Origin: Planctomycetota bacterium
Lineage (GTDB): Bacteria; Planctomycetota; Planctomycetia; Pirellulales; UBA1268
Assembly: GCA_018970785.1 (NCBI GenBank)
Contig: JAGWVR010000001.1
Span: 1-64,000 of the forward strand
Direction: 5' to 3'
Length of the DNA stretch: 64,000 bases
Part shown: piece by piece, positions 39,226-59,669 of the stretch
How positions within the stretch are numbered: position 1 is the first letter of the stretch
Layout: every line of letters begins with the position of its first letter
Notes under the pieces: model-generated
Told to the model about the DNA's origin: nothing
The model's input: only the letters and a program-made list of their open reading frames with translations
The model's database searches: none
Translations under genes and position numbers: made by a program

Positions 39226-39711
39226 TCAGCCGATCAAGGCGTCGAGTCGGCGCCGGAAATCGGGCATCTCGGCGGTGAGGACCTGCTGCCAGGCCTGGGG
39301 GTGCCACAGTTCGACGCACACCACCGCTCCCACGACCACCACGTCGTGCCCCGGTTCCGTGCCGAGGAATGACCGGAATCCCTCGGGGATCACCAGACGG
39401 TCGCGCCCCGCCAGCGACACCGAGGCATGCCGGGCCGACAGCAGACGGCCGGCCTGCTGGACTTCGGCGACACGCTGCGCGAGCAATCCCGCTTCCAACT
39501 TGCTGCGGAGCACGTCGACCGCCGCGTCGAACCGCGGCCGCCACGTCGACGCCGCCCACAGCGACAGGCAGCCGGCCCGCTCCTTGGCGACGATCAACCG
39601 GGGCCCGCCGGCGAGGAGCGGGGCCGACAGTTCGACCGGTAACGAGAGCCGGAAACGCCCGTCGAGCGTTCTGACGAACTCGCCGATCAGCAATCCACCA
39701 GCCGCGCCCAT
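39226..39711 (-). CDS. MraZ-like DNA-binding protein (orphan)
   Basis: This 161-residue protein has two tandem SpoVT/AbrB-like (MraZ) halves. The first has GEFVRTLDGRFRLSLPVEL and the second has LAGRDRLVIPEGFRSFL, with the DxxxR-type motif (DGRFR, GRDRL) that contacts DNA. In most bacteria mraZ opens the dcw cell-division cluster and represses it. Here its neighbours are a peptidase and a lipoprotein, not division genes. Planctomycetes lack FtsZ and their mraZ genes are often isolated, so its target is unclear. The region upstream (39712-40220) is noncoding and holds the structured repeat. Confidence 0.85.
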   Translation of the reverse strand: MGAAGGLLIGEFVRTLDGRFRLSLPVELSAPLLAGGPRLIVAKERAGCLSLWAASTWRPRFDAAVDVLRSKLEAGLLAQRVAEVQQAGRLLSARHASVSLAGRDRLVIPEGFRSFLGTEPGHDVVVVGAVVCVELWHPQAWQQVLTAEMPDFRRRLDALIG

Positions 39712-40220
39712 CGTGCCCCGTCGCCGTCAATCCCTGGCCTCCCTGCACGACTCGTCGCGGGCCGATCCATCCTGCCGCACCGACGATTCCCCTGGGCTGC
39801 CGCTCATCCCCGGCGGCCGTCACTTGCAAGCGTGGGATACGGCCGTCCCACACCAATCGGTGACCCGATGGAAGGGCAAGTAACCCACGAATTCAGCCTG
39901 AAACGATGCCTTGTGGGCAGCAAACCCACCGGCGGAGTCTAGCGACCCAGTTGGAAAGTGCAAGCTGATCGCGACAGGCGGAACCGGCAGACGCTCACTT
40001 GCTGCGGACAAAGCCAGCCATGGCCTTGGTCCGCGAAGGCGACCGCAGAAAATGCCGAGGGTTTCCCGGGTCGCCATCGGCCGCATCCGGCGACCGGCCA
40101 CTTTTTCCACGGTCTGCCGTGAGCGGCAACCTGCACCGCCGCACGCAGCGTCGACAGCCGTGCAAACAGGGCGCCCGTAGGTGACGCCCAGGAGTCAACG
40201 AGGTGCCCTGCCGTGCCTGC
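39712..40220. other. 509-base intergenic region upstream of the MraZ-like gene
   Basis: No gene is supported. It contains the structured repeat at 40004-40099. Short inverted repeats around TGGG/CCCA (for example near 39835-39855 and 39910-39930) might be operators for the MraZ-like protein, but their spacing is not the regular 10 bases known for MraZ boxes. Confidence 0.5.
40004..40099 (+). repeat. Structured REP-like repeat, copy A
   Basis: About 96 bases, similar over most of their length to 59427-59523. It opens with a stem GCGGAC..GTCCGC flanking AAAGCCAGCCATGGCCTT. A conserved core with AGGGTTTCCCGGGTCGCC follows, then a second stem GGTCGCC..GGCGACC around ATCGGCCGCATCC. It lies in the gap between the lipoprotein and MraZ-like genes. 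Confidence 0.8.
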
Positions 40221-40481
40221 TCAGTGGCACGACTCGCACTCGGCCGGGGGCGACGCCGCCTTCAAGGCGGCCGCTTCCTTGGACAGTTTGAACTCCGGCC
40301 CGGCCGGGAAGTACTGGATGTCGTCCTGCAGGTAGTAGGCGCTGGGGAGCGTCTGGCCGCCGACGTCGACCTGGCAGCCTGTCAGCGACAGCGCGGCCAC
40401 GGACAGGCAACCGATCAGGCAGCACAGGGTCCATGACCGGGCGGGGCTCGACGGCTCGCGGCGGAAGGCTGGTGCGTGCAT
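40221..40481 (-). CDS. Small lipoprotein ending in CxxCH
   Basis: This 86-residue protein has a lipoprotein signal with lipobox SLTGC (Cys36). The mature part is CQVDVGGQTLPSAYYLQDD, then IQYFPAGPEFKLSKEAAALK. From memory, similar small lipoproteins are widespread in planctomycetes. The very C-terminus is AECESCH, a CxxCH pattern identical to a covalent haem-c motif (Cys82, Cys85, His86). No distal Met region is visible, so haem binding is uncertain. It is divergent from the CHAT-protein gene. Confidence 0.83.
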   Translation of the reverse strand: MHAPAFRREPSSPARSWTLCCLIGCLSVAALSLTGCQVDVGGQTLPSAYYLQDDIQYFPAGPEFKLSKEAAALKAASPPAECESCH

Positions 40482-58636: not shown

Positions 58637-59422
58637 GTGGCGACCGTCCCCATCCCACAGAGTCGCGTCGACGATGCCACGCCGGTGGCGATCGTGTCGG
58701 GGGGCTCGCGCGGCCTCGGCCTCGCGGTCGTCGAGCGCCTTCTCGAGCGCGGCGACCGCGTTGCCACGTTCTCGCGCGGGCGGTCCGGGCGTCTTGACGA
58801 CCTCACGGCGCGACACCCCGGGGAATTATTCGCCACGACCCTCGACGCCGCCGACCCGGTCGCGGTCGCATCGTTCGTCGGCGCGACGATCGCGCGCTTC
58901 GGGAGAATCGACTCCTGCGTCGCCAACGCCGCGATCGCCGCCGAAGGGGTGCTGGCCACGACGGCCGACGCGTTGATCGCGGAGCTCCTGGCCGTCAACA
59001 TCCAGGGGTCGATCGTCCTGGTGCGCGAGTGCGTGCGGCAGTGGCTCGTGCAACCGCGTCCCCCGACGCCGGACGGGACCGGATCGGCGGTCATGGTGTC
59101 GAGCAGCGTGGCGGCGCGCGGCAGCCCGGGGCTGTCGGTCTATGCCGCCACGAAAGGTGCCCTCGAGTCCTTCGCTCGCAGCCTCGCCCGCGAGGTCGGC
59201 AGCCGCGGCATCCGCGTCAACTGTGTCGCCCCGGGTTTCCTCGAGACCGACCTGTCGGCGAGCCTCCCGGCCGGCGACCGCGCGCGCCTCGTGCGCCGCA
59301 CGCCGCTGGGCAGGCTCGGGATGCCCGCAGACGTCGTTGGGGCGATCGATTTCCTCACCAGTCGCCGCAGCGCCTTCATCACCGGCCAGACGATCACCGT
59401 CGACGGTGGCGGCGGGTTCTAG
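58637..59422 (+). CDS. SDR-family oxidoreductase (FabG-like)
   Basis: This 261-residue short-chain dehydrogenase starts at a GTG. Hallmarks are VSGGSRGLG (cofactor loop), NAAIAAEG, the catalytic Ser in MVSSSVAARGS, and YAATK (Tyr169, Lys173), then VNCVAPGFLETDL. The fold matches 3-oxoacyl-ACP reductases, so it may reduce a beta-keto acyl chain on the adjacent ACP to the 3-hydroxy form. A nucleotide-sugar reductase role is also possible. The structured repeat copy B begins five bases after its stop. Confidence 0.92.
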   Translation: MATVPIPQSRVDDATPVAIVSGGSRGLGLAVVERLLERGDRVATFSRGRSGRLDDLTARHPGELFATTLDAADPVAVASFVGATIARFGRIDSCVANAAIAAEGVLATTADALIAELLAVNIQGSIVLVRECVRQWLVQPRPPTPDGTGSAVMVSSSVAARGSPGLSVYAATKGALESFARSLAREVGSRGIRVNCVAPGFLETDLSASLPAGDRARLVRRTPLGRLGMPADVVGAIDFLTSRRSAFITGQTITVDGGGGF

Positions 59423-59426
59423 ATGT

Positions 59427-59523
59427 CCGTGGACAAAGCCCTCCCTGGCCTTTGTCCACTCAGGCGACCGCGGGACACGCCAAGGGTTTCCCGGGTCGCC
59501 GTCGGCCGCATCCGGCGGCCGAG
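59427..59523 (+). repeat. Structured REP-like repeat, copy B
   Basis: Homologous to 40004-40099. The first stem is GTGGACAAAG..CTTTGTCCAC (10 bp perfect), where copy A has GCGGAC..GTCCGC, a compensating C-G to T-A change. The core CAAGGGTTTCCCGGGTCGCC and the last stem (GGTCGCC..GGCGGCC) are retained. It starts right after the SDR stop codon and may also serve as a 3'-end structure. Confidence 0.8.
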
Positions 59524-59669
59524 CCGAGCTGCCAGTGGACACATCCATCCAGGGTTTTCGTCGCGTCGGTCGCCGGGCTGCATCCCCCTCTCGACGGCGG
59601 GCGCGGCGATCGTTTTCTGACTCGCCCCCCCGTTTGCCACGGAGCCCGTGAAAGCGGAATTTGGACCGC

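Follow-up and report, generated by a model that had tools for sequence, protein, structure and literature searches.

The ERIC (or IRU) sequences of enterobacteria are palindromic MITEs of 127 bp that duplicate their target and lie between genes (PMC2229807), features that recur in the element described here. ERIC ends in TA, whereas the present element shows a 4-bp duplication of the YTAR type, three separate hairpins and an IS1182-like partner. To our knowledge, no IS partner has been assigned to ERIC. The RUP element of Streptococcus pneumoniae is comparable in size and number (107 bp, approximately 100 copies), and its ends match those of IS630-Spn1 of the same species, the basis of a trans-mobilisation model (PMC2229807); however, RUP has an IS630 partner and a TA target, and no conserved internal multi-hairpin cassette has been reported for it. 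The CIR repeats of Caulobacter and Brucella are like our element in their multi-arm RNA fold, conserved across the phylogeny, and in a conserved loop motif (PMC2229807), but they are devoid of terminal inverted repeats and their loop is GANTC, in contrast to the CATCC and GCCRAGG loops found here. REP/BIME sequences and their RAYT enzymes (GTAG/CGTC families) also offer hairpins, clusters and a mostly intergenic location, and REPs are known in the planctomycete Rhodopirellula baltica (PMC3733652); they differ from the present element in size, ends, target duplication and transposase class. No paper on MITEs in Pirellulales was found in the literature searched, which is not proof of novelty.

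The repeat studied here is a MITE, probably moved by an IS1182-like transposase, with an interior cassette of three hairpins that is selected in its folded form.

The 127-bp unit and its copies in the window

The window, that is, the whole stretch of 64,000 nucleotides analysed, belongs to a metagenome assembly of 3.38 Mb that is 69% complete (G000, hereafter the own genome). Alignment of 24 copies from this genome yielded a unit of nearly constant length, 127 bp, formed by a 119-bp core with a tetramer on each side (tetramer, CTGTCCGTGGACAAAGCCCTCCATGGCCTTTGTCCACTCAGGCGACCGCGGGAAACGCCGAGGGTTTCCCGGGTCGCCGTCGGCCGCATCCGGCGGCCGATCACTTTTTCCACGGGCTG, tetramer). An earlier note on this DNA had reported two copies of a 96-base repeat; the copies are real, but the true units are larger, spanning 39994-40120 and 59419-59535, and contain the 96 bases. 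The terminal inverted repeats (CTGTCCGTGGACAAAG and CAGCCCGTGGAAAAAG) are imperfect and about 16-20 bp long, within the 15-30 bp expected of MITEs. Similarly, a length of 127 bp, with three hairpins and many frame-breaking copies, agrees with the 70-300 bp and the absence of coding capacity that characterise such elements. The features of both copies are as follows.

39994..40120, plus strand: copy 1, full 127-bp unit (covariance-model match over its full length, 124.8 bits)
CTCA (left) and CCGT (right), plus strand: tetramers flanking the 119-bp element in copy 1
39998..40013, plus strand: left terminal inverted repeat of copy 1 (copy alignment)
40004..40034, plus strand: hairpin H1 of copy 1, GCGGAC..GTCCGC (folding, covariation)
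40039..40074, plus strand: hairpin H2 of copy 1, loop GCCGAGG (covariation)
40077..40097, plus strand: hairpin H3 of copy 1, loop CGCATCC (covariation)
40100..40116, plus strand: right terminal inverted repeat of copy 1 (copy alignment; the IS1182-like IS has the same ends)
58637..59422, plus strand: short-chain dehydrogenase gene, its stop codon adjoining copy 2 (PF13561, E 1.3e-49)
59419..59535, plus strand: copy 2 (covariance-model match, 121.4 bits)
59419..59422, plus strand: left tetramer of copy 2, CTAG, containing the TAG stop of the upstream gene at 59420-59422 (sequence, ORF)
59429..59459, plus strand: hairpin H1 of copy 2, GTGGAC..GTCCAC (folding, alignment)
59464..59499, plus strand: hairpin H2 of copy 2 (folding, alignment)
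59502..59522, plus strand: hairpin H3 of copy 2 (folding, alignment)

Both copies are intergenic and lie on the plus strand, as had been claimed, and the paired change that distinguishes their first stems (GCGGAC..GTCCGC versus GTGGAC..GTCCAC) is real. The description of one copy as directly following a stop codon also proved correct, given that copy 2 begins at the TAG of the dehydrogenase gene; its right end is degenerate, and next to it lies a decayed fragment resembling another copy. Copy 1 is flanked by a minus-strand ORF that ends at 40221 and by a MraZ-like ORF (39226-39711, minus strand) some 280 bases away. When folding was compared with that of shuffled sequences, copy 2 gave a z value of -4.7, and copy 1 gave -1.7 on the plus strand, a weak value, and -3.4 on the minus strand. 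An intrinsic terminator was discarded, the single weak match in the copy 1 region being no better than the range of the shuffles. Rfam rendered no gathering-score match in the window, and none over the elements of four loci at E <= 0.5.

Distribution, target duplication and unoccupied sites

Copy 1 used as a query retrieved more than 40 copies in the own genome. A covariance model built from 24 own-genome copies gave 135 matches there at E <= 1; at E <= 1e-6 about 98 distinct ones remained, bearing out the expectation of many further copies. Within one Pirellulales family, 22 of 24 genomes (own genome included) matched at E <= 0.001, with 1 to about 100 copies per matching genome; G005 and G020 showed no covariance-model match at this threshold. 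Among 15 genomes of other Pirellulales families there was essentially none, a single genome giving a marginal match. When 84,980 species genomes were scanned with a pattern, the matches listed bore the titles Planctomycetaceae, Pirellulales or Planctomycetota, together with a few of Kuenenia or Gammaproteobacteria, which were taken to be mislabelled metagenome bins. The host of the window is a lake bacterium, and the element is one of freshwater planctomycetes.

Two variants of this organisation were observed. G003, with 124 covariance-model matches, abounds in a 102-base form (L342, L347) that has a different middle; the first and last of its hairpins still carry a CATCC-type loop. The hairpin cassette also occurs in tandem arrays, at L333 (G015), L338, L340 (G001), L334-L336 (G000), L341 (G012) and L346 (G018). 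These arrays have a period of about 74 to 126 bases, lack the right terminal repeat and often begin at the stop codon of a gene; transposition alone would not produce them.

The target duplication comprises 4 bp, mostly CTAG/YTAR, with CTAC and CTGA also present, and the commonest flank pair is CTAG/CTAG. Over 118 copies, left and right tetramers agreed beyond shuffled pairing at the first and last bases (z of 6.1 and 7.8, respectively); weak agreement was seen for the third base (2.8) and for one neighbouring base (3.0); no other position showed any.

Unoccupied sites were read by comparison with G001, a genome of the same genus, 97% complete, about 95% identical and syntenic with most of the window. 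Where G001 was filled and the own genome empty, one copy of the target was kept at five clean sites, namely, CTAG at L105, CTGA at L116 and CTAC at L101, L110 and L111. The own-genome unoccupied site at L106 has a differing tetramer, and three more sites were too divergent or messy for reading. The five clean sites constitute a classical 4-bp target duplication, as in MITEs. At L101 (positions ∼968-1094 in G001), the element breaks an aromatic amino acid hydroxylase-like frame (EPDIFHDVFGHVPLL) that is intact in the own genome.

In the opposite direction, with the own genome filled and G001 empty, seven clean sites (L038, L039, L048, L053, L055, L098 and window position 39994) held exactly four bases, which were never the flanking tetramer: CCCG, CGGG, CATC, CGTG, CAAC, CATG and, at window copy 1, CTTG. 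These sites do not fit simple insertion into YTAR. Since at least 15 of their 28 bases differ, compared to approximately 6% in the flanks, independent mutation is not a credible source of the odd tetramers. Either the element was lost, leaving four-base scars, or the target was altered on insertion. The scar reading is favoured because the empty sites of the own genome retain an unchanged target; rewriting of the target to CTAR upon insertion was rejected, given that the five insertions in the opposite direction had left it intact. Two observations leave an altered target as the less likely alternative: the C-terminus of the gene beside L055 is as long in G001 as in the outgroup G002, and at L041, where the element is absent, CTGA is common to G001 and G003.

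The GC content of the window is 71%, and CTAG is about nine-fold underrepresented in it (4 occurrences versus 35 expected). TTAG and CTAA are also rare in the window (1-64000), and the avoidance of CTAG coincides with the preferred target of the element. A preference for stop codons beyond that of the CTAG target itself was discarded, since the share of element copies abutting long ORFs (52%, with crude gene calls) equalled that of CTAG sites outside elements at the family loci (24 of 46 abutting the end of an ORF of 100 codons or more, also with crude gene calls). With about half of these CTAG sites at ORF ends, many copies sit at stop codons, and insertion may thereby be mild. An orientation bias with respect to the upstream gene was likewise rejected: left ends at stops numbered 45 versus 24, and 17 versus 15 once the copies without a right end and the reverse duplicate hits had been taken out.

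Covariation of the interior hairpins

The interior of the element consists of three hairpins (H1, H2 and H3). Two-sided changes were found in 1 of 34 base pairs among the 24 own-genome copies, and in 28 of 34 across genera, in an alignment of 79 sequences. This alignment gave 314 two-sided covariation cells, compared to a mean of 83 for shuffles and 34-65 for slid-partner controls, with 92.5% of the cells paired, values that lean towards structure given that the sequences were fitted to the model and that about nine rows are reverse-strand matches of copies already counted. The change in the stem is visible by eye in H2, which reads GGCGACCGCGGGAAAC-GCCGAGG-GTTTCCCGGGTCGCC in one form and GGACACCCCCGAAAAA-GCCGAGG-TTTTTCGGGGGTGTC in another. 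The loops, in turn, are fixed across genera, with CATCC in H1 and H3 (with variants) and GCCRAGG in H2. Conservation among own copies peaks in H2 (identity of 0.961) and is lowest in the tetramers (0.66-0.72). One subfamily of own copies (L040, L051, L056, L057, L058, L080, L091 and L093) carries CTCTGAGGCCAGTG in H1, its stem being weakened and the conserved TCC of the loop altered.

The earlier note had argued from the two window copies that the fold is maintained, and had proposed a covariance search for further examples. The two-copy argument is thin, with 1 of 34 pairs changing on both sides in the own genome, but the copies recovered by the model covary strongly across genera. Because the stems covary across genera and the loops remain constant, we infer that selection acts on the folded form, as either RNA or single-stranded DNA. 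Mismatches on the plus strand were of the A-C type in 76 cases and of the G-T type in 31 (p of 1.6e-5 if independent, which the copies are not). Such an A-C excess would fit a minus-strand RNA as the paired form, in which those positions become G-U pairs, and weakly suggests that the minus strand is the one selected.

On the minus strand, the loops of H1 and H3 display GGA (CATGGATG and CCGGATGC). GGA in a hairpin loop is the form bound by CsrA, and several csrA genes were found in each genome tested, the own genome having four matches. The interior could thus be a functional RNA hitch-hiking on transposon ends, its approximately 100 copies acting as CsrA-titrating hairpins, a reading that we consider unlikely.

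Probable partner insertion sequence and alternative origins

Through DDE transposase loci, a candidate partner IS of roughly 1.5 kb was reached in relatives. Its transposase contains DUF772 (1.2e-15) and DDE_Tnp_1, both over the cut-off, and matches the NCBIfam IS1182 model NF033551 at 1.6e-53 with 182 bits, the equivalog cut-off being 270; we refer to this DDE enzyme, putatively of the IS1182/IS5 type, as IS1182-like. The IS ends ATAGCAGGCTGTGGATAAAGTCG (L312), CTAGCAGGCCGTGGATAAAGTCG (L319) and CTAGCAGCCCGTGGCCCAAGTCG (L313) resemble those of the MITE, and the best identity extends over 20 bases, between ATAGCAGGCTGTGGATAAAGTCG and the right end of a MITE of G008 (CTAGCAGGCTGTGGATAAAGTAC, L125). 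An internally deleted IS copy (L318) retains both ends, with CTAG before each. Thus, the element shares its terminal ∼20 bases with an autonomous IS of relatives, as MITEs do. No common sequence was seen beyond the ends, and the interior is not a remnant of this IS.

According to the mechanism proposed, the IS1182-like (DUF772 plus DDE) transposase would recognise the ends in trans, and the 119-bp non-coding element would insert with duplication of a 4-bp target. Given that the terminal ∼20 bp are common to both and that CTAG flanks the IS as well, mobilisation in trans by such an enzyme is probable. That the element is a MITE follows from its ends, its target duplication, the insertion differences among close relatives and its approximately 100 copies.

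The identity of the enzyme has an alternative, since the IS1182-like IS occurs in only some genomes of the family (12 of 60), and no copy of it was found in the own genome (69% complete assembly), G001 or G003. Multi-copy ISs are often lost from metagenome assemblies. YTAR-type 4-bp duplications are known for IS5- and IS701-type groups, so another transposase with the same preference might have escaped detection; the identity over 20 bases between MITE and IS1182-like ends makes this improbable. The IS701-type DDE_5 (PF13546) was rejected as the partner: it is rare, and its loci have no matching terminal repeats of their own, the match at two of them (in G003 and G001) belonging to a variant of the element that lies nearby. 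The resemblance to REP or BIME elements suggested at the outset was not sustained. Copies are indeed many, intergenic, hairpin-rich and at times clustered in tandem, and Y1 transposases exist in certain other genera of the family; however, the search for a REP-associated transposase revealed no Y1/RAYT enzyme (PF01797) in the four genomes of the window genus (G000-G003) despite their numerous copies, G001 being 97% complete and among the copy-richest. Furthermore, inverted ends with a 4-bp direct duplication are unlike the products of a Y1 enzyme, and the 127-bp unit with three hairpins has no constant REP tag (GTAG/GGAG or CGTC at the base of a hairpin of 20-40 nt), the end tetramers being variable. 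Spread as REP, BIME or REPIN by a RAYT (Y1, HUH) transposase via single-stranded hairpins is accordingly very hard to credit.

A structured RNA family with a host function, in which transposon ends were incidental and mobility secondary, would account for stems that covary under invariant loops across genera, for the end-less tandem copies directly after stop codons and for an H2 more conserved than the element ends. This origin seems quite unlikely to us, in view of copy numbers that range from 1 to about 100 among relatives, of several insertion differences among close relatives, of the even orientation of two-ended copies towards the upstream gene (17 versus 15) and of the lack of an Rfam match.

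The reading as a MITE with an IS1182-like partner names a likely enzyme, and the question of mobilisation becomes testable. The four-base empty sites lacking the expected target could show how such elements leave. The interior of a MITE, normally called debris between ends, is here under what we infer to be structural selection, and the element clearly exemplifies, over about a dozen genera, a MITE whose inside is maintained by covarying base pairs while the loops do not vary. Should a host protein bind the hairpins, regulation would be rewired by a selfish element at approximately 100 places.
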